The notes under the pieces are model-generated. The model saw nothing but the letters and a program-made list of their open reading frames with translations. It was not told the origin of the DNA and did not search any database. A DNA stretch of 10,655 bases from Verrucomicrobia bacterium GWC2_42_7 (lineage in GTDB: Bacteria; Verrucomicrobiota; Verrucomicrobiia; Opitutales; GWC2-42-7-A): positions 3,521 to 14,175 of the forward strand of contig MIDO01000079.1 in the NCBI GenBank assembly GCA_001831055.1, written 5' to 3'. A program made the translations under genes and the position numbers. Below are positions 342 to 10,153 of this stretch, piece by piece (the first letter of the stretch is position 1; each line of letters starts with the position of its first letter).

Positions 342-445
342 GGGGGAACTGCTTTTGGTCCCCCAAAAGCGGTTCCCCCACACCCCCTCCTAAAAGGAGA
401 TCGTTGCGAAAAGGTAAATTCCTTGCGGAATTTTCATTTTCGCAA
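342..445 (+). repeat. EF two-hairpin element, copy 1 (class I linker)
   Basis: Hairpin E has arms at 342-358 and 363-379 (gggggaactgcttttgg against its complement, 17 bp including one G-T wobble, 4-nt loop). The 24-nt linker 380-403 contains CTCCTAAAAGGAGATCG, itself a small TCC/GGA hairpin. Hairpin F occupies 404-445: ttgcgaaaa pairs with ttttcgcaa, and aaattcc with ggaattt around a TTGC loop. Copies 2, 5, 6 and the partial copy 9 share this linker. It lies between the divergent oxidoreductase and NamZ genes. The structure is read directly; function unknown. Confidence 0.8.
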
Positions 446-524
446 AGCGTTGATATCAATATAGTTAGTGAAAAAATTATGACTTTCCAAAGGGAAGCAG
501 ATGCGGCCAAAGAAATAGAGCTGT

Positions 525-640
525 TATGGTGAAAGGTATTGGCAGTCCAGACGCTTTAGCGGTTCCCCTCGAAAGATCCAATGGCCTAAATTTATTTGGC
601 AATCAAACTGATGCGATTTTTATCGCCAAACACATCCGAG
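525..640 (+). repeat. D repeat, copy 1
   Basis: Positions 569-607 match 6371-6409 with a single mismatch over 39 nt, and weaker similarity extends back to about 525 (tatggtgaaaggtatt against tatagtgaaatgtatt). Downstream, tttggc at 596 and gccaaa near 634 form a degraded version of the hairpin that follows D copy 2. An open frame of 56 codons (526-696, beginning MVKGIGSPDALAVPLERS) runs through it and overlaps the TGA of a preceding 17-codon frame as ATGGTGA. Copy 2 carries a stop in the equivalent frame, so coding is doubtful. The region 446-743 otherwise shows no recognisable gene. Confidence 0.65.
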
Positions 641-743
641 CATGCATCCTAGAAATGGGGGATACAAGTGACTCCATCGTACCTTGCGCAAAATAAGATT
701 TTTTATTTTTCGATTTGCGAAATATCTTCTTTTGGGAAATTGC

Positions 744-2084
744 ATGAAGAAAATCGTTTCTTTTTTATTTTTGGTTTTTTGGATAATTCCTTTGGATTCT
801 GCGCGGCACAAGCCAACGGATCCTGCTAACTTAAGCTCGAAGGGAAAGCAATTGAGGGTCAAGCCGACTCGGGCTGTAAGCAGTTCGGAAGTTTTGCTTG
901 GCATCGATGTACTTGAACAATCAAGCTTCAAGATACTGAAAGGTAAACGCGTAGGACTTCTCACTAACCAAGCAGGAGTCAATCGCTTCAAAAAAAGCAC
1001 CATACAGGTTTTATTCGATTCTGACAAAGTTAAGTTGGTGGCTCTTTTTGCTCCAGAACACGGCATCGACGGACGCGCAAAAGCTCAGGACTCCGTCGCA
1101 AATACAAGTCACCCAGCTACAGGACTTCCCGTCTATTCACTTTACGGGCCCACTAGGCGGCCAACAGCACAAATGCTCAAAAACATCGATGTCATGGTCA
1201 TCGACCTCCAGGACATCGGTGTCCGTTCCTACACTTATATCAGCTGCTTACGCTATACCATGGAAGCCTGTTTCGAGAATGGAGTCGCCGTGGTTGTCCT
1301 TGATAGGCCCAATCCGCTAGGGGGACTTAAAGTTGATGGCCCCGTGATGGATGCACAGTGGATGAGTTATGTAGGCGCTTATCGTATCCCTTATGTTCAT
1401 GGACTTACTATCGGAGAACTCGCCCTCATGGCTAAAGACATCTCCAATAGTATTCCCTCGGTTCCCTCTATCTCATCTTCGGTCCGTCGCAATGGAAACC
1501 TGACTGTCATCCCCATGAAAGGCTGGAAACGCTCTATGCTTTGGATCGATACAGGCCTCTCGTGGATACCAACCTCCCCTTATATCCGCGATACGTCCTC
1601 CATTTTTGGCTACGCCATGATTGGTCTCGGTTGTCAAATTGGAGGGTTTCACCATGGCATTGGCTCCTTTTACCCCTTCAGAATCCTCACCTTCCAAAAC
1701 AAAACACCCGAGGATATCATTTCTGCACTTAAATCTAAACACATCCCCGGCCTTGCTTATCAAAAACGCCCATTCAATGACTCGAATGGGAAACGCCAAG
1801 AAGGCGTCTATGTCGAGATTTCAGACTGGAATGCCCTGCGTCCAACAGAAATCAGCTTCTACTTAATGCAGATCGCCGCCCAATGGAGCTCTAAGAATCC
1901 TTTTAGCCAAGTATCAGAAGACCAAATGAGCCTCTTCAATAAGCACACGGGGTCGAATTCATGGTGGAAAGAAATCTCCTCCAAAGGGTCCCTTGCAAAC
2001 GTCCCCTACTTTATCTCCCAATGGAAATCACAATCATCCGACTTCCAAAAAAAATCTAAAAAATACTGGCTCTATAGAGAGTAG
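744..2084 (+). CDS. namZ: Secreted DUF1343 / NamZ-type exo-beta-N-acetylmuramidase (GH171)
   Basis: A 446-residue protein of the YbbC/NamZ family, which removes MurNAc from the non-reducing end of peptidoglycan fragments during cell-wall turnover. Family blocks appear in order: GKRVGLLTNQAGVN (about 67-80), LFAPEHGIDG (101-110), GLPVYSLYGPTRRP (127-140), DLQDIGVRSYTY (154-165), VVVLDRPNPLGG (183-194), HGLTIGELAL (219-228), GWKRSMLW (260-267) and WIPTSPYI (274-281). The acidic and histidine residues of APEHG lie in the proposed active site. The start at 744 is preferred because it gives a signal peptide (MKKIVSFLFLVFWIIPLDSA) after a GGGA about 8 nt upstream; the longer frame starts with a TTG at 684 and adds a basic stretch with no family similarity. 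Export to the periplasm is inferred. Length is near the family norm. It stands alone, flanked by EF elements; the substrate assignment is by family only. Confidence 0.9.
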   Translation: MKKIVSFLFLVFWIIPLDSARHKPTDPANLSSKGKQLRVKPTRAVSSSEVLLGIDVLEQSSFKILKGKRVGLLTNQAGVNRFKKSTIQVLFDSDKVKLVALFAPEHGIDGRAKAQDSVANTSHPATGLPVYSLYGPTRRPTAQMLKNIDVMVIDLQDIGVRSYTYISCLRYTMEACFENGVAVVVLDRPNPLGGLKVDGPVMDAQWMSYVGAYRIPYVHGLTIGELALMAKDISNSIPSVPSISSSVRRNGNLTVIPMKGWKRSMLWIDTGLSWIPTSPYIRDTSSIFGYAMIGLGCQIGGFHHGIGSFYPFRILTFQNKTPEDIISALKSKHIPGLAYQKRPFNDSNGKRQEGVYVEISDWNALRPTEISFYLMQIAAQWSSKNPFSQVSEDQMSLFNKHTGSNSWWKEISSKGSLANVPYFISQWKSQSSDFQKKSKKYWLYRE

Positions 2085-2089
2085 TTTTA

Positions 2090-2198
2090 GGGGAACCGCT
2101 TTTGGTCCCCCCAAAAGCCCTCCCCCTTACCCCCTCCGAAAAGGAATTTTCTATGTTCTTGCGCGAACAAATTCCACAAAATTTTGTGTCCGCTCAAG
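2090..2198 (+). repeat. EF two-hairpin element, copy 2 (decayed, class I linker)
   Basis: It begins 6 nt after the NamZ stop codon. The E left arm ggggaaccgcttttgg (2090-2105) faces ccaaaagccctccccc (2111-2126), where the ends pair but the centre no longer does. The linker CCCCCTCCGAAAAGGA (about 2130-2145) is the class I sequence. F (2158-2198) starts CTTGCGCGAAC and ends CCGCTCAAG, with a 14-nt palindrome cacaaaattttgtg inside. The E-F distance is 31 nt instead of 22-24, and both stems have mismatches, so this looks like an old, eroding copy. Confidence 0.68.
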
Positions 2199-2258
2199 GT
2201 TTTTGTCAAAAAGGGGATTGAGAAAGGTTATATAATAAAGAAGAAATAAGTGGGCCCA

Positions 2259-2372
2259 CCGGAACCCCTTTCTTTTTGAGTGGAAAAAGAAAGGGGTTCC
2301 GGACCTCCCCTAAGAAAAACCAATAATCAGCCCGAAAAATCTGAAAAATTCTTCGAATTTGATCGGGCTGAT
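2259..2372 (+). repeat. EF two-hairpin element, copy 3 (class II linker)
   Basis: E is a perfect 19-bp stem: ccggaacccctttcttttt (2259-2277) with its complement at 2284-2302, loop gagtgg. The 23-nt linker 2303-2325 contains CCCCTAAGAAAAACCAAT. F (2326-2372) pairs atcagcccga with tcgggctgat and has an inner 6-bp stem aaattc/gaattt with a 3-nt loop. The linker and E core match copy 7, which lies in the opposite orientation. It is 61 nt downstream of copy 2 in the same gap. Confidence 0.8.
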
Positions 2373-2423
2373 AAGATGGATTTTGTTTAAGTTCTCAACG
2401 ATACGTCTTTTTTGGGTCAACCT

Positions 2424-2462
2424 CAATCTGTTTGACTATGCAAGGTATAGCCAAGCAGATTG
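2424..2462. other. Isolated long hairpin in the 2373-2589 gap
   Basis: caatctg (2424-2430) pairs with cagattg (2456-2462), continued inward by tttgactat against atagccaag (one wobble, one mismatch), with a 7-nt loop. No E hairpin or EF linker stands next to it. The rest of 2373-2589 is AT-rich and shows no gene, tRNA or convincing promoter. Confidence 0.5.
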
Positions 2463-2589
2463 GGAATCAGAATGGGAAAATCTTTCTTTCTCTTGCTAAA
2501 AACGCGAATTTTGGATAAAAAACCTTTTCTTGAAAACGTAATATTTTAATCAACAAATGCTTAGTGACTATGTTTATGCATATTAACGA

Positions 2590-2724
2590 AGCAAAAATGT
2601 CAAAAACGAATCAAACAAGACTGACAAGCGAGTGCGAGCCAGTCGGACTTTTCTGATCTTTGTACCTCGAGCTCGTCCAGGACTGCTGCCAATGACGTTT
2701 GACGACGTTTTTCACATTTTTGCT
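2590..2724. repeat. P palindrome, copy 1 (about 135 nt imperfect inverted repeat)
   Basis: The outer arms agcaaaaatgtcaaaaacg (2590-2608) and cgtttttcacatttttgct (2706-2724) pair over 19 positions with one C-C mismatch. Inside, tcaaac pairs with gtttga, and gcgagc (about 2633) can pair with gctcgt (about 2670). The centre differs from the other copies while the arms are kept. It ends 126 nt upstream of the Nudix gene. Related copies are at 7818-7942 and 10021-10144, with a right half at 7724-7789. Confidence 0.75.
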
Positions 2725-2850
2725 TATCCAACGTTCGCGTTAAAAAGAGGCTCTCTTTGCTTTTCAATTAAAACTACGATGTGTTTTGGCGAAAGAGAAT
2801 TTACTTGCATTTGATTTGAGAGGTATTAGGATCTCCAAAGAATTTTTTGT

Positions 2851-3573
2851 ATGAAGCAGATCCTTTTTATTTTCTTTTTGATTCCAGCAAGCTTGTTTGC
2901 TGTGACAACCGCAACTGTTCCAGGTGTTTCCGTTATTGAGGCCAACAACGTGAAAGAGTCTAAGGAACAAAAGCAACCATCCTCCTCAACTAGATTGGTT
3001 AAAAATGCCAAAAACAAAGGGAATCACAGTCTAGAAGAAAGGGCTTATCGTCCACCGGTGCTAGCAACTTCTGCAGTTATAGAATTATTTGATGGCGATA
3101 AATCTAAAGGTTTTATTGTAATAGATAGGTGGAATGCTCCTTTCGGCAAAGCGTTGCCAGGTGGAAAAGTAGAATATGGCGAATCGGTGGAAGACGCGAT
3201 CAGAAGAGAGATGCGTGAGGAATTGAACGTAAACTTACTTAACTTAAGACAATTCCACGTGTACTCGCACCCAGACCGGGACCCTCGATTTCATTGCGTC
3301 GATGTCCTTTTCTTAGCAGAAGCAGAGGCTTTTCCGAAAGCTGGAGATGATGCAGCGAGGGCACATGTTGTTAGCCTAGAAGAGCTGAGTAAAATGAAGC
3401 TTGTTTTTGACCATTGTGAAATGGTTAAAGACTATCTTAAATACAGGAATGCTCTTGCTAAAGGAGAGAAGTGGGTCGGAGAACAAGGGAAGGGAAACAT
3501 CATAATTCCAAAAAAAGATAAAGAATCTCCATCTCCCCAAATGTCTGCGACAAAATTGAAGACAGAAGAATAA
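2851..3573 (+). CDS. Nudix hydrolase with signal peptide, ADP-ribose-pyrophosphatase-like
   Basis: A 240-residue protein. Residues 1-17 (MKQILFIFFLIPASLFA) form a hydrophobic signal sequence with an A-x-A-like end, followed by a low-complexity linker to about residue 65. The Nudix domain runs from about 70 to 185. The Nudix box GX5EX7REUXEEXGU is present at 105-127 as GKVEYGE...REMREELNV, with every catalytic Glu/Arg kept but the late Gly replaced by Asn126. HVYSHPDRDPRFH (136-148) matches the segment after the box in ADP-ribose and MutT-like enzymes. A charged Lys/Glu-rich tail follows residue 205. The expected reaction is Mg-dependent hydrolysis of a nucleoside diphosphate linked to X; the substrate is not predictable. 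The ATG at 2851 has only a weak AAAG upstream, yet no alternative start before the domain removes the signal sequence neatly. The CorC-like gene follows after 9 nt, suggesting co-transcription. Confidence 0.88.
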   Translation: MKQILFIFFLIPASLFAVTTATVPGVSVIEANNVKESKEQKQPSSSTRLVKNAKNKGNHSLEERAYRPPVLATSAVIELFDGDKSKGFIVIDRWNAPFGKALPGGKVEYGESVEDAIRREMREELNVNLLNLRQFHVYSHPDRDPRFHCVDVLFLAEAEAFPKAGDDAARAHVVSLEELSKMKLVFDHCEMVKDYLKYRNALAKGEKWVGEQGKGNIIIPKKDKESPSPQMSATKLKTEE

Positions 3574-3582
3574 CTTTAAAGT

Positions 3583-4872
3583 ATGCCTGTTAGTGAAATT
3601 GGAGTTATCCTGGCATATGTGTTGCTATTGGTTGCACACGCCCTTTTGGTTGCTTGTGAGTTTAGCTTAATCAAGATTCGCTATATCGTTCTGGAGCGCA
3701 AAGACTTAGATGAACTTCGATCGGATCATAATATTCGTCGCCTCCTAGACAAGGCGAAACATACAAGCCAGTTTATTCGATTTGGGAATGTCGTAACAAC
3801 CATCCTCATTGTTGCATTATTCTTTCTATTTGTCAGAGAATATACGGACCTTAGCACACCGTCACTAAAGCTCCTTCAAATCACAGTCAGTTTTTTGGTG
3901 ATTTTGGTTATCCTCTACTTTTTTGGGGAAGTCCTACCCCGGACCCTTGCGATAAGTAATCCCAAAAGGATATTGAAAGCCGTATCGCTTCCTGTATTTA
4001 TAATACAATTGGTTTTATGGCCTGTTCTATATTCGTTACAATACCTTACAGCAAAGATACTTAGATTATTTAAACTCAATACCAAACACGATATCAATTT
4101 ATTGGATATTTACATTCAAATTCGTGCATTGGGGGAGGATAAAGCTGTCCTAACAAAGCAAACGCGGAAAATCATTACTAACGCCCTTAAAATAAAGGAT
4201 CTTGTTGCTTCGGATATTTTATTGCCAAGAAACCAAATCGAGTATCTGAATATTAACGACCCGATAGCCACAAATTTAGCAAAGGCAAAATCACATGGAC
4301 ATACGCGTTTGCCCCTCTGCGATGGCGACCTTGATAATTGCATCGGCTTCGTTCATATCAAAAACATTTTTATTTACAGTGGGAATCCAGACGAATTGGA
4401 TTTAAGGAAAATCAAACACCCCATTATCCGCTTTTCAATTACAACATCGGTTGAAGATATTTTACAAAAATTCCTGAAGTCGAACATACATATGGCCCTT
4501 GTTGTGGATGAGTTTGGAGGCACAATCGGCATTGTCACCTTGGAGCGCCTATTGGAAGAATTAGTGGGAGATATTCAAGATGAGTTCGATAACGAAGAAA
4601 AGGAAGTTGTTCATATAGCCGAGCAACGCTATAAGGTCTTTGGCTCGATCCCGATCCATGACCTCGATGAAGCGCTAAACATAACTATTAAAAACGACGC
4701 TGTCTCGACCTTTAGCGGGCTCATCACCTCTGAGCTTGGCCGAATCCCGTTGGCAGGAGAAACCCTAACTATCGGCAATCTCGCCATTACAGTAGACGAA
4801 GTCGGAGAAACCCGCGTAATCTCCGCTACCGTCGAAATCCTCCCCACACCAGAAGGCCATACCGAAGCATAA
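3583..4872 (+). CDS. CNNM (DUF21)-CBS-CorC transporter-type membrane protein
   Basis: A 429-residue inner-membrane protein of the HlyC/CorC/CNNM family, associated with divalent cation (Mg/Co) efflux or homeostasis. Hydrophobic segments at about 7-27, 68-86, 98-116 and 133-155 make the DUF21 transmembrane domain, and FGEVLPRTLA (114-123) is the signature at its core. A CBS pair follows at about 205-335, ending in VVDEFGGTIGIVTLERLLEE and GDIQDEFD, which is characteristic of the second CBS motif. The C-terminal CorC_HlyC domain (about 345-422) contains VFGSIPIHDLDEAL and the closing LAGETLTIGNL...V segments. Length is normal for the family. It starts 9 nt after the Nudix stop with a weak AAAG upstream, so translation may be coupled. 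Older 'hemolysin' labels for this family are not supported here. The gene is followed by EF copy 4 after 32 nt. Confidence 0.92.
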   Translation: MPVSEIGVILAYVLLLVAHALLVACEFSLIKIRYIVLERKDLDELRSDHNIRRLLDKAKHTSQFIRFGNVVTTILIVALFFLFVREYTDLSTPSLKLLQITVSFLVILVILYFFGEVLPRTLAISNPKRILKAVSLPVFIIQLVLWPVLYSLQYLTAKILRLFKLNTKHDINLLDIYIQIRALGEDKAVLTKQTRKIITNALKIKDLVASDILLPRNQIEYLNINDPIATNLAKAKSHGHTRLPLCDGDLDNCIGFVHIKNIFIYSGNPDELDLRKIKHPIIRFSITTSVEDILQKFLKSNIHMALVVDEFGGTIGIVTLERLLEELVGDIQDEFDNEEKEVVHIAEQRYKVFGSIPIHDLDEALNITIKNDAVSTFSGLITSELGRIPLAGETLTIGNLAITVDEVGETRVISATVEILPTPEGHTEA

Positions 4873-4904
4873 TATAGCATAGGCAAGTTAAGAAAAGACA
4901 AGGT

Positions 4905-5003
4905 GCGAAAACCTTTCTTTTTTCGCAAAAAGAAAAGTTTTCGCGCTTTCCAAAGAAAAACGATAGTGCGCGAACAAAAAAGCGTGACTTTTTTGTTCGC
5001 GCA
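4905..5003 (+). repeat. EF two-hairpin element, copy 4 (class II linker)
   Basis: E: gcgaaaacctttcttttt (4905-4922) with its complement at 4927-4944 (18 bp, one mismatch, loop TCGC). The 22-nt linker 4945-4966 contains CTTTCCAAAGAAAAACGATAG. F: tgcgcgaacaaaaaag (4967-4982) pairs perfectly over 16 bp with 4988-5003, loop CGTGA. The linker matches copy 8 (7650-7671, opposite strand) at 21 of 22 positions. It sits 32 nt after the CorC stop. Confidence 0.82.
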
Positions 5004-5182
5004 AAGGGGTTGTTTTTTGTAACAATTTTTATTGTCTATGCTATATTGGGAAGAGGGTTTTAGAAAACAACTCTTAGAATAAACAAAGAAAAGGAATCAA
5101 AGACTTTTATAGGGGGACACCTCTAGAAACCCTATTTTCGGAAAAATGAAGATCTTTCCTTAAGATATTGTTTCCCAAACAT
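5004..5182. other. Intergenic stretch without recognised gene
   Basis: Between EF copies 4 and 5 there are 179 AT-rich bases with many stop codons and no family-like peptide. A gttgtttt near 5009 can pair with aaaacaac near 5065, but the loop is long. TATATT around 5042 could be a -10 box; no matching -35 is convincing. Confidence 0.4.
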
Positions 5183-5293
5183 ATCTGCATTATAAGAAAT
5201 TCTTGTAGAACTTCTTATAATGCAGATAATCTCCTTTTCGGAAAGGGGATTTGGGAAAACCGCTTCTAAGCGATTAAAAGCGGTTTTCCCAAA
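5183..5293 (-). repeat. EF two-hairpin element, copy 5 (class I linker, inverted)
   Basis: On plus, F comes first: atctgcattataagaa (5183-5198) pairs perfectly over 16 bp with 5212-5227, then ttct/agaa inside with a 3-nt loop. The linker 5228-5249 reads TTTCCGAAAAGGAGATT on minus. E: tttgggaaaaccgctt (5250-5265) pairs perfectly with 5278-5293. The right end is 25 nt upstream of the pseudouridine synthase start. Copies 4 and 5 face each other across the gap. Confidence 0.82.
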
Positions 5294-5318
5294 AAAATAC
5301 ACGTCCAAATAACACCAT

Positions 5319-6110
5319 ATGCATCAAGAACTTAGATTTCCGCCACCGCTTTTAGGATTAAGGCCAGTGAGTTTGGCTGTTCTCTGGAAACAGGGACAGA
5401 CATTTGCGGTGGAGAAGCCCAAGGATATCCTTATTGAAGAGCATCCTTGGTATGAATTACCTGTATTAGCGAATGCGATCCGGGCACAGATGGAAGCGGG
5501 AAAGAAAGATTTTGTTAATTTCCTATCGAAGGATCTATTTTCGATTCATCTCTTAGATCCAGAAGTGTCTGGGATGGCAATACTTACATGCAACAAAAAG
5601 GAATGCGATAGCTTGCGCAATGATTTGGGTTCGGAGCAATTTCTTTTTCAGTTCACTTTAATTACAGAACGAACTTCCTTTGATGAATCTGAATTAGACT
5701 GCGACCTGCCCATTGCAATAGATGATAAACAGAAACGGATATTTGTTTCTCATAAAAATGGGAAAAAATCTTTCACCCATTTTCGCCGAATATCGCAATT
5801 ACCTTATCATGAAGTATGGATTGCAGAAACCGCTTATCCTCGCCTACATCAAATACGTCTTCATGCAGCGGAGAAAGGATTACGTATCTTGGGCGAAAGT
5901 TTATACACGCAAACCCCCTTACTTCATTTGTCTTCATTGAAAAAACGGTTCAAAAACAAAGATCAGGAAAAGCCATTAATTGACTCACTTGCGCTACACC
6001 TAAGCTCCGTCCAATTCCCCTTAAATAACGAGACCATTAAGGTCACCTCGCCCCTACCAAAGAAGATGTCCGTCGCCTTGTCTTATTTGAAAAAAGTAAA
6101 CCTTGCATGA
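5319..6110 (+). CDS. Divergent RluA-like RNA pseudouridine synthase
   Basis: A 263-residue protein resembling the RluA/RluC/RluD family, which isomerises uridine to pseudouridine in rRNA or tRNA. VEKPKDILIEEHP (31-43) corresponds to the family's VnKPaGllvh strand. IHLLDPEVSGMAIL (76-89) corresponds to HRLDxxTSGlll; the catalytic aspartate is kept as Asp80, but the preceding arginine is Leu79 and the Thr is Val83. RLHQIRLHAAEKGLRILGES (175-194) is the very typical GRTHQIRvHla..G.pi.GD block, and LALHLSSVQFP (about 224-234) matches the final LHa..l.f.hP. There is no S4 domain at the N terminus. No Shine-Dalgarno is visible before the ATG at 5319, and EF copy 5 ends just upstream. Family membership is good; activity is uncertain given the altered HRLD motif. 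It is possibly a paralogue specialised in this lineage. Confidence 0.75.
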   Translation: MHQELRFPPPLLGLRPVSLAVLWKQGQTFAVEKPKDILIEEHPWYELPVLANAIRAQMEAGKKDFVNFLSKDLFSIHLLDPEVSGMAILTCNKKECDSLRNDLGSEQFLFQFTLITERTSFDESELDCDLPIAIDDKQKRIFVSHKNGKKSFTHFRRISQLPYHEVWIAETAYPRLHQIRLHAAEKGLRILGESLYTQTPLLHLSSLKKRFKNKDQEKPLIDSLALHLSSVQFPLNNETIKVTSPLPKKMSVALSYLKKVNLA

Positions 6111-6119
6111 GTAAAGCTA

Positions 6120-6223
6120 CGGGGAAACGGCTTTTATTCGCATAAAAGCGTTTCCCCGCACCCCTTCCGAAAAGGAGATCGTTGCGCTGAGAGTAAAATT
6201 TTATAAATTTTATCTCAGCGCAA
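6120..6223 (+). repeat. EF two-hairpin element, copy 6 (class I linker)
   Basis: Starts 9 nt after the pseudouridine synthase stop. E: cggggaaacggctttta (6120-6136) pairs with 6143-6158 with one bulged G, loop TTCGCA. The 23-nt linker 6159-6181 contains CCCCTTCCGAAAAGGAGATC. F: ttgcgctgaga plus taaaattt pairs over 19 bp with 6205-6223, one bulged G (6193) and a 3-nt loop. It is the cleanest class I copy. Confidence 0.83.
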
Positions 6224-6304
6224 GGAGCCTTTATGGGACGCTTTCCCGGAGAAAAAATATATTCTGTTAATATTCAACGCCATATAGATATCCTTTCCCC
6301 CTCG

Positions 6305-6332
6305 TTGACAAGGTAAACGAAGAAGGTATAGT
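6305..6332 (+). promoter_or_regulatory. Sigma-70-type promoter upstream of D copy 2 and fmt
   Basis: TTGACA (6305-6310), a 16-nt spacer, then TATAGT (6327-6332): a full -35 consensus and a -10 with 4 of 6 bases. Transcription would start near 6339, inside D copy 2, and would cross EF copy 7 before fmt, giving an approximately 200-nt leader. The TATAGT is shared by D copies 2 and 3, but only copy 2 has a recognisable -35. Confidence 0.55.
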
Positions 6333-6410
6333 GAAATGTATTGAGGGTTGATGCGCTTTTGCGGTTCACATCGAAAGATGCAATGGCCTAAATTTATTTG
6401 GCAATCAAAA
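6325..6410 (+). repeat. D repeat, copy 2 (fused to EF copy 7)
   Basis: Shares 39 nt with one mismatch with D copy 1 (6371-6409 against 569-607). Its 5' part tatagtgaaatgtatt recurs exactly on the minus strand at 9970-9985. It runs straight into the F hairpin of EF copy 7, so D and EF form one composite here. The frame that is open in copy 1 has a TGA near 6349. Confidence 0.72.
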
Positions 6411-6500
6411 TCTGCAAGATTTTGATTGCCAAATCATTGGTTTTTCTTAGGAAGGTTGCGGAACCCCTTCTTTTTTACCTCAAAAAGAAGGGGTTCCGCA
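6396..6500 (-). repeat. EF two-hairpin element, copy 7 (class II linker, inverted)
   Basis: F: atttggcaatcaaaatc (6396-6412) pairs perfectly over 17 bp with 6418-6434, loop TGCAA. The linker 6435-6456 reads ACCTTCCTAAGAAAAACCAA on minus. E: tgcggaaccccttcttttt (6457-6475) pairs perfectly over 19 bp with 6482-6500, loop TACCTC. On plus, F is followed after 6 nt by TTTTTCTT, which resembles a terminator. It lies 38 nt upstream of the fmt start, in the presumed leader. Confidence 0.83.
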
Positions 6501-6538
6501 CCTCCATTCTTAATGCATTTAATCATAGGATCATATAG

Positions 6539-7504
6539 ATGAAAAAAATAGTCTTTATGGGAGCGGATCCCATTGCATTGCCATTGTTGGAGTTTTTAAA
6601 AAACTCGCAAAAGGAAGCGTTTTCTCTTTGTGGCATTTTTAGCCAACCGGACAAACCCGTCGGCCGAGGGCAGCAAATTAAAGCCAACCCTATTTCAGAA
6701 TGGGCAAAGACCAACGGTATTCCTTTGTTGACTCCCGAAAAAATTGGCGATGCTGAATTAACGTGGTTACGTACGCAAGAGATTGATTTGATTATCGTGA
6801 TGGCATATGGCCATCTATTAAAACAACCTCTCTTGGATATTCCCCCTCTTGGAGCCATTAATTTCCACGTATCGCTATTACCCAAATACAGAGGAGCCAG
6901 CCCTATTGCAACAGTGATCGCAGAAGGAGAATCCGAGACAGGCGTCTCCCTGATGAAAATTGTCCTAAAAATGGATGCTGGTGGTGTTTTAGCTCAAGAA
7001 AAAGTGCTTATTTCGCCATCCGAGACCACTGAAACTTTGAGCAAAAAGTTGTCCCTTGCGACAGTAACACTCGCTCAAAAGTATTTATCAGAGGTATTGT
7101 CAGGCAATGGAACTTTCTCCGAGCAAGATGACTCCCAAGCTTCATATTGCAGAATTATCCATAAAGAAGACGGCGGGTTGGATTTTTCAGCTCCAGCAAA
7201 CGTCCTTGAGCGCCGCATCAGAGCTTTACAACCCTGGCCAGGAGCCTTCTTCGATTGCAATGAGGTAAGAATAAAAATCAAAGAAGCCTTTGTTATGCAA
7301 AGCGTTACAAGCACAACGCCTGGAGAAGTTGTGAAAGGAGCTAACAATGCACTATGCGTAGCCACTCAAGAGGGAACTCTCTGCTTCACAAAACTCCAAC
7401 GCCCGGGAGGGAAGATGCTAGATGCCGAATCCTTTTTACGCGGATTCCCCATTCCCCCAGGCGAAAAGTTGATGGGCTTTCCACTAAAGCCCCTGGTAAG
7501 GTAA
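6539..7504 (+). CDS. fmt: Methionyl-tRNA formyltransferase
   Basis: A 321-residue enzyme that transfers a formyl group from 10-formyl-tetrahydrofolate to Met-tRNA(fMet) for translation initiation. The N-terminal formyltransferase fold begins KIVFMGADPIALPLLEFL, followed by the folate-site segment SQPDKPVGRGQQIKANP (35-51). The catalytic triad is present: Asn108 and His110 in INFHVSLLPKYRGASPI, and Asp146 in KMDAGGVLAQEK. The C-terminal tRNA-binding domain carries the family's RALQPWPGAFF (about 229-239). Length matches bacterial Fmt (about 310-320). AGGA lies 8 nt before the ATG. It is not next to def, its frequent partner. A strong promoter at 6305 and two large hairpins lie upstream, suggesting a long structured leader or read-through control. 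Confidence 0.96.
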   Translation: MKKIVFMGADPIALPLLEFLKNSQKEAFSLCGIFSQPDKPVGRGQQIKANPISEWAKTNGIPLLTPEKIGDAELTWLRTQEIDLIIVMAYGHLLKQPLLDIPPLGAINFHVSLLPKYRGASPIATVIAEGESETGVSLMKIVLKMDAGGVLAQEKVLISPSETTETLSKKLSLATVTLAQKYLSEVLSGNGTFSEQDDSQASYCRIIHKEDGGLDFSAPANVLERRIRALQPWPGAFFDCNEVRIKIKEAFVMQSVTSTTPGEVVKGANNALCVATQEGTLCFTKLQRPGGKMLDAESFLRGFPIPPGEKLMGFPLKPLVR

Positions 7505-7533
7505 TATGGAAGCCCCTAAAAACTGTGGAGAAA

Positions 7534-7574
7534 CTGCGCCCTAATAAGCTCTTGCAGAACCTGTTAGGGTGCAG
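7534..7574 (+). other. Hairpin 30 nt after fmt
   Basis: ctgcgccctaa (7534-7544) pairs with ttagggtgcag (7564-7574), 11 bp with one G-T wobble and a 19-nt loop. No T-run follows, so it is not a standard intrinsic terminator. It is possibly an mRNA 3'-end stabiliser or a relic of another element. Confidence 0.45.
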
Positions 7575-7613
7575 ACGTCGTTCAACAAAACATCTCCCAA
7601 AATCCTGTCTCTT

Positions 7614-7671
7614 TGCGCGAAAAAAAGTCTACACTTTTTGATTCGTGCACTATCGCTTTTCTTTGGAAAGC
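7614..7671 (-). repeat. EF element, copy 8 (F hairpin and class II linker only)
   Basis: F: tgcgcgaaaaaaag (7614-7627) can pair imperfectly with ctttttgattcgtgca (7634-7649). The linker 7650-7671 reads CTTTCCAAAGAAAAGCGATAG on minus, 21 of 22 identical to copy 4. No E hairpin is recognisable beyond it. On plus, cgctttt/aaagcg (about 7654-7672) followed by ATTTTTTAT resembles an intrinsic terminator and could end fmt transcription. Confidence 0.66.
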
Positions 7672-7723
7672 GCGATTTTTTATACGTTTTTTCTTTTCTC
7701 GTGAATCGCAACTTGTCTCTACT

Positions 7724-7789
7724 TGACGTACGTTGAGCCCGTTAGCGACTGCAGTCAAACAACGTTTGACGACGTTTTTCACTCATCTG
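7724..7789 (+). repeat. P palindrome, right half only
   Basis: Begins tgacgtacgttgagcccgtt and ends cgacgtttttcact. It is nearly identical to the right half of the complete copy starting about 150 nt further on (7875-7936). The matching left half is absent; the preceding AT-rich bases are unrelated. This is a truncated or partially duplicated copy. Confidence 0.7.
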
Positions 7790-7817
7790 TTTATTCAAAG
7801 AATTCAGATTTCTATGC

Positions 7818-7942
7818 AGCAGAAGTGTCAAAAACGAGTCAAACAAGGCGACAAAGGAGTGCGGGCGAGGCGTACTGACGTACGTTGAGCCCGTTAGCGA
7901 CTGCGGTCAACGACGTTTGACGACGTTTTTCACACTTCTGCT
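7818..7942. repeat. P palindrome, copy 2 (complete, about 125 nt)
   Basis: Arms agcagaagtgtcaaaaacg (7818-7836) and cgtttttcacacttctgct (7924-7942) pair with the same single C-C mismatch as copy 1. Two positions differ from copy 1 in both arms so that pairing is kept (A-T to G-C). Inside, gcgggc (7861-7866) pairs with gcccgt, and cgtac/gtacg flank a 3-nt loop. It lies between the convergent fmt and flagellin genes. Confidence 0.78.
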
Positions 7943-7956
7943 ACGCCGTTTAAATA

Positions 7957-7984
7957 GCAAGACCCCCATAAAAGGGGTCCCTGC
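7957..7984. terminator. Terminator-type hairpin after flagellin (possibly bidirectional)
   Basis: agcaagaccccc and ggggtccctgct form a GC-rich stem (core gacccc/ggggtc) 23 nt beyond the flagellin stop. On minus it is followed by ATTTAAA, a weak T-tract; on plus by TTTATTTAG. Position between convergent transcription units fits a shared terminator. Confidence 0.6.
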
Positions 7985-8007
7985 TTTATTTAGGATTTGT
8001 ATTGTTT

Positions 8008-8808
8008 CTATCCAATTAGCTTGAGGGCTATTTGAGGAGAAGCATTTGCTTGAGCCAACATGGCAGTACCCGCTTGTGATAGTATTTGGAACCTAGCGAA
8101 AGCGGTTGATTCTGAGGCAATATCAGTATCAGCGATACGGCTATTTGCTGCTTGCAAGTTTGTCGCATTAATCGACAACATGCTGTTTGCAAATTGTAAT
8201 CTGCTGGATTGAGCACCGTTAACAGCTCGAGAAGACGCCACAGTTGCAATGGCATTCGTAACCGTTCCGATGGATAATCCACTCAGAGCAGAGGCACCAG
8301 TGATACTAGTTACATTGGAGCTAAGGTCTGAAGCAGAAAGAGCAACGGATTGCGAACCATCTTCAGTGATTACTACACTTCCTGGGCTGCTGGAACCAAA
8401 TAAGCTAACCCCATTGAACTTTTCAGCGGTCAATGCTGTTAACTGTGCCTTTAATTCGAGAAACTCTTTATTGTAGTTCGTCTTATCACTGGCACTCTTT
8501 GTAATGTCTCCGTACAAAGATTTCAGTTCAGAAATACGGTTAAGAATGTCTCCCGATGTTTTCAACGCACCATCTTGAGTTTGCAAGAAAGAAATAGCAT
8601 TACCCACATTTGCTTGGACAGCTGAATTCCTTTTTAAAGCAGACTGCATCTTAACTGACACAGCCAAACCACCTGCGTCGTCAGAGGGGTCTTGAATTCT
8701 ATTACCACTTGACAACTTCCCTAAGCTTTTTTGCAAAGCTGCATTTGTTACTTGTAACGTCGTTGCTGCACTTGATGCAGCTACGTTTGTATTGATGACT
8801 AGAGCCAT
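8008..8808 (-). CDS. fliC: Flagellin (short, D0/D1 core)
   Basis: A 266-residue flagellar filament subunit, exported by the flagellar type III system. The N-terminal D0/D1 segment starts MALVINTNVAASSAATTLQ and includes LGKLSSGNRIQDPSDDAGGL (29-48), the family's SSGLRINSA.DDAAGLA block. Heptad-like helices follow to about residue 130. The C-terminal block (217-266) NLQAANSRIADTDIASES...QILSQAGTAMLAQAN closes the coiled core. The middle (about 131-200) is only a short Ser/Thr-rich piece, so large D2/D3 outer domains are missing. The start codon has AAGGA 7 nt upstream, and a sigma-28-type promoter lies about 100 nt upstream. No chaperone or other flagellar gene is adjacent. Symbol by function; other paralogues may exist elsewhere. 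Confidence 0.95.
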   Translation of the reverse strand: MALVINTNVAASSAATTLQVTNAALQKSLGKLSSGNRIQDPSDDAGGLAVSVKMQSALKRNSAVQANVGNAISFLQTQDGALKTSGDILNRISELKSLYGDITKSASDKTNYNKEFLELKAQLTALTAEKFNGVSLFGSSSPGSVVITEDGSQSVALSASDLSSNVTSITGASALSGLSIGTVTNAIATVASSRAVNGAQSSRLQFANSMLSINATNLQAANSRIADTDIASESTAFARFQILSQAGTAMLAQANASPQIALKLIG

Positions 8809-8812
8809 AAGT

Positions 8813-8822
8813 CCATCCTTGT
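8813..8822 (-). promoter_or_regulatory. Flagellin ribosome-binding site within a CsrA-like motif
   Basis: On minus the bases ACAAGGATGG cover the Shine-Dalgarno AAGGA. They agree with the CsrA/RsmA-type binding consensus (ACANGGANGU) except for the last base. CsrA is known to repress flagellin translation this way in Bacillus hag. Whether this organism has CsrA cannot be seen here, and the leader's GGA is not in an obvious hairpin loop. Confidence 0.4.
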
Positions 8823-8907
8823 TGATGTCGACAACTTCCCTGTTGCCATAGGACCAATTCTTTTAGGCATTGGTGGCCTATCAAAGTAGAGGGCTTTGAC
8901 TCCTTGT

Positions 8908-8934
8908 ATATCGACCACACTCGCCCCAACTTTA
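8908..8934 (-). promoter_or_regulatory. Sigma-28 (FliA)-type promoter of flagellin
   Basis: On minus: TAAAGTTG (8934-8927), exactly 11 nt, then GTCGATAT (8915-8908). The FliA consensus is TAAAGTTT-N11-GCCGATAA, giving 7 of 8 and 6 of 8 matches. The start site would be near 8900, producing a leader of about 92 nt. Two hairpins lie in it: tcaaag/ctttga (8881-8899) and atagg-accaat with its complement (8848-8881, two bulged G). Confidence 0.75.
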
Positions 8935-9066
8935 ATGTAAAATAGCTCAAAAGAAGTATTTGCCTGAGAGCATAATTTCTTTTGAAAAAAAATGGATTCG
9001 GAAGGTCCGCTAAAATTAACTTTACTGCATTGCGCCAAAGTAATACCTTACTTTTGTAAAATAATA

Positions 9067-9119
9067 CCTTTCGAAAAGGAGATTGAACCCATTTGAGGAA
9101 CCAAGACGGACTTTCCTCA
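9067..9119 (+). repeat. EF element, copy 9 (class I linker and F hairpin only)
   Basis: CCTTTCGAAAAGGAGATT (9067-9084) is the class I linker. A shorter hairpin follows, tgaggaa (9094-9100) with ttcctca (9113-9119). The bases before it do not give a strong E stem. It lies 33 nt upstream of the L,D-transpeptidase start. The gap 8935-9151 holds nothing else recognisable apart from AT-rich sequence. Confidence 0.55.
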
Positions 9120-9151: not shown

Positions 9152-9847
9152 GTGCTTAACAGGACAACGAAGTTCTTGAAAACCAAAGAAAATTGCCCAG
9201 GCCTAAACAAAGACTGCATTCAAAAGGAATGGGAGTCTGCACAACTATCTCCATTCCGAACGGTACTCGAAAAGACTTTCGAAAATAAGGCTGAAGAGGT
9301 TTTTTCAAGCCTTTCTGGTTCGGATTGTCTCGAACAAGCACTCTCCAGGCCCTACCCTATCATTACGGTTTCGGTTCGCGATAGTTTGTTATGTTTTCAT
9401 ACGGGAAACAGCTGCAAGCAATATACAATATCTACCTCACGGAAAGGCATTTGCTCTATTCTTAACTCTGAAGGAACCCCCTTGGGTCTACACGAAGTTA
9501 AAGAGAAATACGGCGCCGGCGCAGAAACAGGTAGTGTCTTTATTGGGAGAAAAGAAATCGGGAAAAAATATTGGGATCTAACTGAACCCGAATTTTTAGG
9601 CAAGAACCTTGTAACCACTAGAATCCTTCGTTTAAACGGGCTAGAAATGGAAAAAAACAGGGGAATTTGCCAAAAAAGTGGCCTTAGCTGCGACAGTTTT
9701 GATCGCTTTATTTACATACATGGATCAAACAATGAAGACCTTATAGGACAACCTCTTAGTAGTGGTTGCGTCCTTATGAGAAATACAGAAATAATTGAGC
9801 TGTTCGATCTAACACCCCTACAGACTTTAGTGTATATTTATAGTTAA
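9152..9847 (+). CDS. YkuD-family L,D-transpeptidase, no visible signal peptide
   Basis: A 231-residue protein with a C-terminal YkuD domain (about 68-230), which cross-links peptidoglycan stem peptides or attaches proteins to them through a catalytic cysteine. GTPLGLHEVKEKYGAGAETG (108-127) and VFIGR are typical of the family. RFIYIHGSNNEDLIGQPLSS (185-204) supplies the active-site His190, and SSGCVLM (203-209) the nucleophile Cys206. The usual motif is SHGCIRM, so the His before Gly and the Arg after Cys are changed to Ser and Leu. Residues 1-60 are charged and have no membrane segment. The start is a GTG, with an in-frame stop 7 nt before it and no Shine-Dalgarno, so the N terminus cannot be extended. 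EF copy 9 lies directly upstream and may have replaced the original 5' end. Family is firm; activity and export are uncertain. Confidence 0.85.
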   Translation: MLNRTTKFLKTKENCPGLNKDCIQKEWESAQLSPFRTVLEKTFENKAEEVFSSLSGSDCLEQALSRPYPIITVSVRDSLLCFHTGNSCKQYTISTSRKGICSILNSEGTPLGLHEVKEKYGAGAETGSVFIGRKEIGKKYWDLTEPEFLGKNLVTTRILRLNGLEMEKNRGICQKSGLSCDSFDRFIYIHGSNNEDLIGQPLSSGCVLMRNTEIIELFDLTPLQTLVYIYS

Positions 9848-9856
9848 ATTCATTGA

Positions 9857-9985
9857 GAATGGAGATGCGGAACCCCTTCTTTTTGAGGGAAGGAAGAAGG
9901 ATTTTGATTACAAAATGAATTTAAGCCATTGTATACTTCAATGCGAACCGCAAAAACGCCTCGACTGTTAATACATTTCACTATA
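9857..9985 (-). repeat. D repeat, copy 3, fused to a half E hairpin (internal deletion)
   Basis: On minus it starts TATAGTGAAATGTATT (9985-9970), identical to D copy 2, continues through a diverged CAATGGCTTAAATT and aatcaaaat (to 9901), and then joins directly to the E stem region. The plus-strand arm tgcggaaccccttcttttt (9866-9884) is identical to copy 7's E arm, and the flank CTCCATTCT is shared too. Relative to copy 2, the F right arm, the linker and one E arm are missing. It starts 9 nt after the L,D-transpeptidase stop. Confidence 0.7.
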
Positions 9986-10020
9986 AGTTTTGGCAATTAT
10001 ATTCACGTATTTTCACAAGG

Positions 10021-10144
10021 GAAAAATGTCAAAAACAAGGCAAACAAGGGGGAGAAAGGAGTGCGAGCGAGGCGTACTAACGTACGTTGAGCTCGCCAGC
10101 GACTGCTGTCAACGTAGTTTGACGATGTTTTTCACATTTTTGCT
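10021..10144. repeat. P palindrome, copy 3 (about 125 nt)
   Basis: aaaaatgtcaaaaac at the left and gtttttcacattttt at the right pair with the same C-C mismatch as the other copies. Inside, gcgagc pairs with gctcgc, where copy 2 has gcgggc/gcccgt, and cgtac/gtacg form the tip. The outermost three bases on the left (ggg) no longer pair. It ends 9 nt before the HAD start codon. Confidence 0.75.
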
Positions 10145-10153
10145 TATCCAAAA

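Follow-up and report, generated by a model that had tools for sequence, protein, structure and literature searches.

The stretch of DNA analysed here (the window) comprises 10,655 nucleotides of contig MIDO01000079.1 from Verrucomicrobia bacterium GWC2_42_7 (G000:C79:3521-14175, where G000 denotes the window's genome, a 1.30 Mb assembly of 133 contigs that is 64% complete). The eight window open reading frames (ORFs) that were scanned match ordinary families, namely NamZ, NUDIX, CNNM/CorC, pseudouridine synthase, formyltransferase, flagellin, YkuD and HAD. The window also carries copies of a repeat unit in which a hairpin (H1), a linker of ~22 nt and a second hairpin (H2) follow one another, and which occurs in two related types, A and B. 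Joint changes of H1 and the linker were found in three genomes, each from a different family (four sets of elements), and in elements of five genomes from a fourth family, with the linker reading as the parallel (mirror) complement of the 5' arm of H1, such that an arm of the form GnAmCk is accompanied by a linker of the form CnT(m-1)Ck.

Copies of the repeat in the window

Hairpin stems in the window measure 16-22 bp, and no hairpin of equal score was found in any of five block-shuffled windows. The first copy, of type A on the forward strand, has H1 at 342-379 and H2 at 404-445, and in its linker (380-403) CCCCCTCC mirrors GGGGGAA of H1. A type B copy on the same strand has H1 at 2259-2302, a linker at 2303-2325 that was read from the sequence and alignment rows, and H2 at 2326-2372, an imperfect stem read in the same way that is weaker and absent from the main hairpin-scan list. 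Comparison with locus L079 (such codes denote individual genome stretches bearing elements, as do L102 and L278) places the ends of this unit at 2231-2258 and 2413-2440, which form a terminal inverted repeat. The next forward type B copy consists of H1 at 4905-4944, a linker at 4945-4966 in which CTTTCC mirrors GAAAA of H1, and H2 at 4967-5003; flank comparison identified its terminal inverted repeats as TATAGCATAGGCAA on the left (4873-4886) and TTGTCTATGCTATA on the right (5032-5045).

A type A copy on the reverse strand has H2 at 5182-5228, H1 at 5250-5293 and, between them, a linker (5229-5249) in which CCCTTTCC was read as mirroring GGGAAAA of H1. The forward type A copy at 6120-6223 was detected only at a lower hairpin-scan threshold, with H1 at 6120-6158, H2 at 6182-6223 and a linker at 6159-6181 whose CCCCTTCC mirrors GGGGAAA. 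The last complete copy, of type B on the reverse strand, has H2 at 6396-6434, the linker at 6435-6456 and H1 at 6457-6500. By reading on the forward strand, this unit ends in TATAGTGAAATGTATTGAG at 6327-6345 and in an imperfect inverted repeat of it at 6510-6527; flank scoring picked another pair here. By direct reading, five of the six complete window copies obey the exact linker rule given below, the exception being the 6396 copy, in which GGAA is accompanied by CCTTCC. The hairpin scan confirmed the long paired stems of the original prediction in the copies at 342, 2259 (H1), 4905, 5182 and 6396.

Decayed pieces were also found. H1 and the linker of a type A copy remain on the forward strand at 2090-2155 (74% identity to 343-408), with H2 left, by reading, at ~2159-2200, and an isolated type A linker fragment was found by sequence self-comparison at 9067-9087 (forward strand). 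These two pieces and one at 7614 had been listed originally, and all three are present; the last, however, listed as partial, is a decayed type B copy on the reverse strand that can be aligned with an entire one (7583-7675), and two remnants had been missed. One is a type B unit remnant from 525 to ~634 on the forward strand, where an 83-nt match of 84% to 6327-6409 covers 525-607 and the remainder was assigned by reading, and the other is a forward type B unit at 9839-9985, recognised by self-comparison and reading, that keeps both ends and has an internal deletion running from H1 into H2. A separate repeat family occupies 2589-2725, 7818-7949 and 10019-10145; the ends of the 2589-2725 copy are AAGCAAAAATGTCAAAAACG and its near-inverse, and the others are similar.

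Occurrence in the genome and the linker rule

A type A covariance model built from 21 copies gave at least 150 full-length matches in G000, at E 5.2e-14 or better among the matches listed, and a type B model of H1 plus linker, built from 19 copies, gave at least 150 matches at E 1.1e-5 or better among those listed; one type B place was listed on both strands, and the two lists were not compared for overlap. A blastn search with one copy returned 56 matches of 76-100% identity. The stems fall into types A and B with subfamilies in which paired bases change jointly, and the earlier description of the stems as unrelated therefore has to be given up, while its expectation of further copies was borne out genome-wide and in relatives. 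The same H1-linker-H2 unit, with different stems, is present in G022 and G012, carriers from other families of the same order. In a sample of this order, 3/273 genomes matched the type A model at E 1e-5 under stricter filters; 10 weaker matches in G005 and one in G025 came from a scan that was smaller and laxer and that returned no genome of G000's own family. Across the phylum, the type B model under stricter filters matched 7/387 genomes at E 1e-5, comprising G000 and six genomes of a single genus in family f41, which has the phylum alone in common with G000; G012 and G022 are not among these matches and may not have been drawn in the 387-genome sample. The six f41 genomes have 37-138 matches each at E 0.1, some of which are the two strands of one place. 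Two exact linker patterns had no match in viral contigs.

Several arrangements beside the common one were seen. In L085 (573 to ~730), a single H2 serves a pair of type A elements, which gives a five-part palindrome, H1-linker-H2-linker'-H1'. H2 is short in G022 (for example in L102 and L105), with a nearly fixed tip, TGCTGCGCA, and a paired base that varies. G005 (L097, L100, L103, L106 and L109) has a different two-hairpin repeat, where a short CTAAGGGG..CCCCTTAG hairpin lies beside a long one at gaps of 5-14 nt.

From G000, 193 elements were extracted (110 type A and 83 type B, with at least one place, L200/L059, present twice), and 33 hairpin pairs without type were excluded. The linker counts omit 37 of the 193, for which the H1 core alone was detected, and 2 of the 42 G012 and G022 rows, which were read on the wrong side. 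A constant spacing of 22-24 nt had been proposed for the two stems; gaps in the window copies are indeed close to this (21-24 nt), and among G000 copies with full H1 the gap is 21-24 nt in 53/72 of type A and 22 nt in 47/81 of type B. The linker is not simply conserved, as had been thought, but co-varies with H1 in the parallel sense. Runs of G in the arm are accompanied by runs of C in the linker, runs of A by runs of T one shorter, runs of C by C and runs of T by A, as in L102, where GGGGG AAAA CCC TTTT CTGAA is found with CCCCC TTT CCC AAAA GACTT.

This rule was derived by eye from elements of G012, G022 and G000, and the same elements were then tested; for this reason, the test applied was a comparison of each element's own linker with linkers swapped between elements. 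In its exact form for the lower tract (the parallel complement with its last base dropped, followed by CC), the rule holds in 24/24 G022, 12/16 G012, 41/72 G000 type A and 56/70 G000 type B elements. Swapped linkers gave means of 10.2, 4.3, 17.1 and 25.6 and maxima in 5000 swaps of 17, 9, 28 and 39, respectively, so that none reached the count of its own set. When distinct tract pairs were counted once, the rule held in 13/13, 11/15, 17/43 and 13/24, and permutations scored as high in 0, 0, 0 and 0.005% of 20000 trials. Each of the four G012 exceptions carries a mismatch in H1, and there the linker agrees with the 3' arm. In an alignment score, the own linker ranked above all 2000 swaps in G022, G012 and type B. 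Linkers scored 7.9-10.0, compared with 4.5-6.1 for the other flanks of H1 and H2 (0.1-1.0 above their own shuffles) and 4.4-4.7 for shuffled linkers. The whole-arm antiparallel score lies below the parallel one in all sets, and the identity and reverse scores do so in G022, type A, type B and f41. The one-base skip, in which the T run is one shorter than the A run, is seen in 153/180 elements of five sets (13/16 in f41, 22/22 in G022, 13/15 in G012, 50/65 in type A and 55/62 in type B).

The f41 genus was found after the rule had been formed, but by way of the H1-plus-linker model, and six of its loci were viewed before the orienting motif was chosen. Among 56 oriented hairpins in 30 loci, 18 distinct hairpins have the motif, and these scored 15.75 with their own linkers, 12.48 with swapped linkers (highest of 5000 swaps, 14.50) and 4.86 with shuffled ones. 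The f41 hairpins are longer. After omission of two of the 18 rows, which lay on the wrong side of hairpins already counted on the right side, the remaining 16 elements, which come from five genomes and not from G393, averaged 21.1 matches over 24.6 columns (86%), whereas shuffled linkers reached 6.4. For the upper tract, 13 of these 16 elements fit, against a swapped maximum of 12.

Stem pairing, strand polarity and mobility

About 95% of stem positions in the 193-element set are Watson-Crick pairs and, even on the better strand, only ~2% are wobbles; 204/332 unpaired positions are of transition type. In the 21 type A copies the covariation score was 0.439, compared with 0.049-0.158 for slid partners, and 0/500 shuffles were as high, which confirms strong covariation with the slid-partner test as its sole control for kinship. 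Between nearest-neighbour copies, whose shared history means that changed pairs are not all independent, 172 changed pairs were compensated (91 by transition and 81 by transversion) and 213 were uncompensated, with 20 others set aside. As 81 of the 172 compensated changes are transversions, which have no route via a G-U step, these data favour one-step homogenisation of the arms on DNA. The original prediction had offered selection on structure or a copying mechanism that regenerates palindromes; the covariation and the transversion-rich compensation agree with this, although homogenisation cannot produce the parallel covariation of the linker.

The strands of the element are not equivalent. 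Mismatches on the top strand are A.C in 137 cases and G.T in 67 (100 and 62 as distinct events), and the asymmetry is present in H2 alone (69 vs 40) as well as in H1, so that on the strand read 5'-H2-linker-H1-3' mismatches are more often wobbles. When the two arms of H1 differ within the lower tract, the linker agrees with the 3' arm, which would encode its purine partner, in 23 cases, with the 5' arm in five and with neither in two. Together with the middle C block, which departs from the rule when the other strand is read, the wobble asymmetry and this agreement favour the H2-linker-H1 strand. Orientation in tandem gene gaps looks random (36 vs 31), and that one strand is nevertheless favoured may reflect a stage in the element's own cycle, perhaps a single-stranded copy. 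Gap types resemble the background (tandem in 67/98 vs 126/187). The claim that the copies sit only between genes may not hold throughout, as 41/193 elements overlap a mechanically called ORF (at least 80 aa) by more than 50 nt and many such ORFs are perhaps spurious.

Some type B units are shorter than ~250 bp and have terminal inverted repeats starting TATAG and many copies. Type B flank pairs score at least 12 as inverted repeats in 14/79 elements and in 0 shuffles; by reading, 9 of the 14 have TATAG-type ends and the rest resemble neighbouring repeats. For type A, flank inverted repeats were found in 1/104. Type B copies at separate loci are 98-100% alike, and the closest type A pair, one doubly seen place aside, is 91% alike. 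L049 (1411-1494) and L084 (2752-2849), which keep type B ends and lack the two-hairpin core, were considered as empty sites but are better read as deletions. The transposase domain Y1_Tnp (PF01797) had no match in G000, G012 or G022; in f41, three of the six genomes had none and the other three had one match each. DDE_3 was found in one gene of G000 (G000:C18) and in none of G012 or G022. An IS630-type source is conceivable on the strength of this single gene, the flanks of which showed no element ends. In L220 (G000:C18:1-3000), the DDE_3 match lies close to a hairpin (323-360) resembling type B H2 and to an ORF that resembles FliP/SctR.

Triple-helix reading, rival explanations and known systems

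As the linker changes in step with the hairpin, as a third strand would, it seems to be the shape of the DNA that is preserved rather than its sequence. Copying and Watson-Crick pairing are both antiparallel, and neither makes a parallel complement, which a third strand in the major groove would. The simplest physical reading, inferred from the sequences, is an intrastrand triple helix of H1 and the linker. The strand 5'-H2-linker-H1-3' would fold into hairpin H1 with the linker in its major groove. There the linker would first lie along the purine half of the 5' arm in antiparallel orientation (G.G-C, A.A-T) and then, after one base is dropped at the purine-to-pyrimidine junction, along that of the 3' arm in parallel orientation (T.A-T and similar triads), following the orientation rules of the two triplex motifs in the available part of PMC4666352. 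The shape may be kept since copying would pass through a single-stranded stage of fixed polarity, and template switching from arm to arm could keep the palindromes near perfect. We give about even credence to the view that these are dispersed, probably non-autonomous mobile repeats in which the part that is preserved, the core, forms an intrastrand triple-helix module. Tentatively, and with somewhat less than even confidence, we propose a mobile repeat in at least four families of one phylum, whose single-stranded DNA may fold into a long alternate-strand triplex with a one-base skip at the junction, the third strand being held by selection.

A number of results weigh against the triplex. For type A, the alignment score of the own linker is not above that of swapped linkers, and only the exact lower-tract rule shows an excess. 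The middle block (C, CC, CCC or CAC) is copied as identity, not as complement. In G000, G012 and G022 the upper tract shows a weak excess of own over swapped linkers (z 1.4-2.9). The type B tracts are short, with six or more triads in 1/71, and the type B reverse match (30/71) exceeds its swapped maximum of 26. The G012 reverse score is above all 2000 swaps, and in G012 the identity (7.97) and reverse (7.09) scores exceed the parallel score (6.59), the identity score showing no excess of own over swapped linkers; runs of A and T make these alternative relations partly interchangeable. The 23 to 5 preference for the 3' arm could be mutation bias. Where the arms disagree in the upper tract, the linker follows the 5' arm in 43 cases, the 3' arm in 10 and neither in 22, most type A rows coming from a bulge; by set, the counts are 5 to 0 with 2 neither in f41 and 10 to 8 with 18 neither in type B. 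This 5'-arm preference, as the triplex model expects, is suggestive only. As f41 was found with the H1-plus-linker model, only the swap control is fair there, and its antiparallel score of 7.92 lies just above all 5000 swaps (7.89). Among the Y1_Tnp and DDE_3 matches in carriers, no transposase was tied to the repeat core. Finally, the E. coli repeat described in the available part of PMC4666352 forms a triplex in vitro and showed no footprint in vivo.

Competing accounts explain parts of these data. Ordinary repeats of the kind formed by miniature inverted-repeat transposable elements (MITEs) or repetitive extragenic palindromes (REPs) could have their palindromes corrected by template switching (quasipalindrome correction), with the linker a conserved protein site and no triplex. 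The 91 transitions and 81 transversions among compensated changes, set against 204/332 transition-type unpaired positions, would fit this, as would the terminal inverted repeats flanking some type B cores and the homogenisation of inverted-repeat arms known elsewhere, according to the available parts of PMC7202029 and PMC8604942; however, antiparallel copying by a polymerase cannot account for parallel tracking of H1 by the linker, and independence of the two is rejected by the linker swaps, both in the four sets and in f41, which leaves this explanation unlikely, if the most serious competitor. Strong covariation and a mismatch asymmetry favouring one strand are also what a transcribed structured RNA selected for its fold (a small RNA, an untranslated-region element or a terminator) would show, yet the random gene orientation, the background-like gap types, the scarcity of wobbles and the absence of any Rfam 15 match at or above the gathering score, both in the window and in eight related loci, make an RNA improbable. 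A third proposal has the linker competing with the 3' arm of H1 for the 5' arm by antiparallel pairing, as a switch or strand-exchange intermediate. Type B is the set that speaks for it and against the triplex, since its linker (TTTC, TTCC or TCTC) gives a shortened antiparallel match with the arm in 66/71 (swapped mean 43.7, maximum 53); this match does not hold up in G022 (1/24), in type A (7/73) or in G012 (6/16, against a swapped maximum of 9), and with the whole-arm antiparallel score below the parallel one throughout, we give the proposal very little credence.

REPs and bacterial interspersed mosaic elements (BIMEs), if mobilised by a hairpin-reading Y1 (RAYT) transposase, would resemble the present repeats as dispersed hairpins with a short tail. 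REPINs pair inverted copies of a hairpin and its tail, and a degenerate inverted linker is found here downstream of type A H2 (8.50, compared with 6.05 for shuffled sequence and 6.82 upstream) and upstream of G022 H1. Whether the G022 inverted linker tracks its own linker was considered and set aside, the excess being unclear (8.09 vs 7.74 for swapped linkers). Against such movement, Y1_Tnp was found neither in the three same-order carriers, among them the 64% complete G000, nor in half of the f41 genomes, and RAYT mobilisation is accordingly rated as highly improbable; unlike REPs, in which the stem sequence is conserved and has a foot tetranucleotide, the present elements have a drifting stem that the linker mirrors. 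Some type B units, being small, multicopy and bounded by terminal inverted repeats, recall MITEs such as Correia and nemis elements, but the core is also present in type A, where flank repeats were found in only 1/104, and in other families, and no transposase is tied to it. In mitochondrial double-hairpin elements, the shape is kept and the sequence varies. These too consist of two intergenic hairpins (PMC2800124, in the part available), but the genome here is prokaryotic and that part describes no third-strand relation. Purine mirror repeats with a short spacer are also the substrate of H-DNA, but here half of the mirror is supplied by a hairpin arm within the strand itself, and purines give way to pyrimidines along the tract.

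Among the open-licence PMC papers that searches for such repeats returned, only PMC4666352 (Holder et al. 2015) bears on them, judged by titles and abstract openings. The enterobacterial PIT/TM_ECO/BoxC elements described in its available part are likewise intergenic, multicopy and without orientation bias, with a hairpin, an adjacent third-strand tract, a 3-nt turn and sometimes inverted pairs. A homopurine tract in the arm with an adjacent third tract fitting triplex rules, by which PIT/TM elements are recognised, appears here in the lower tract and, in f41, over the whole arm. TM_ECO itself, by the same source, has 9-nt stems, loops of 1-6 nt, very similar copies, one purine tract and class II order; the present elements depart from this consensus, as the stem of H1 runs on well past a 6-nt loop. 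Their stems are of 15-28 bp, the putative third strand passes a switch from purine to pyrimidine, the copies vary and co-vary, and H2 follows in G000, G012 and G022. Third-strand covariation over many variants with stems of up to 28 bp would, if true, be direct evolutionary evidence that intrastrand DNA triplexes matter in living bacteria. It would also hint at a copying process able to sense the shape of the DNA and would offer a criterion by which further elements could be recognised; searches restricted to loops of 1-6 nt would be expected to overlook them. The natural variants supply matched and mismatched test molecules. On sequence grounds, we file these elements as a probable variant of the known intrastrand-triplex repeats, lying inside MITE-like units in some type B copies or more.

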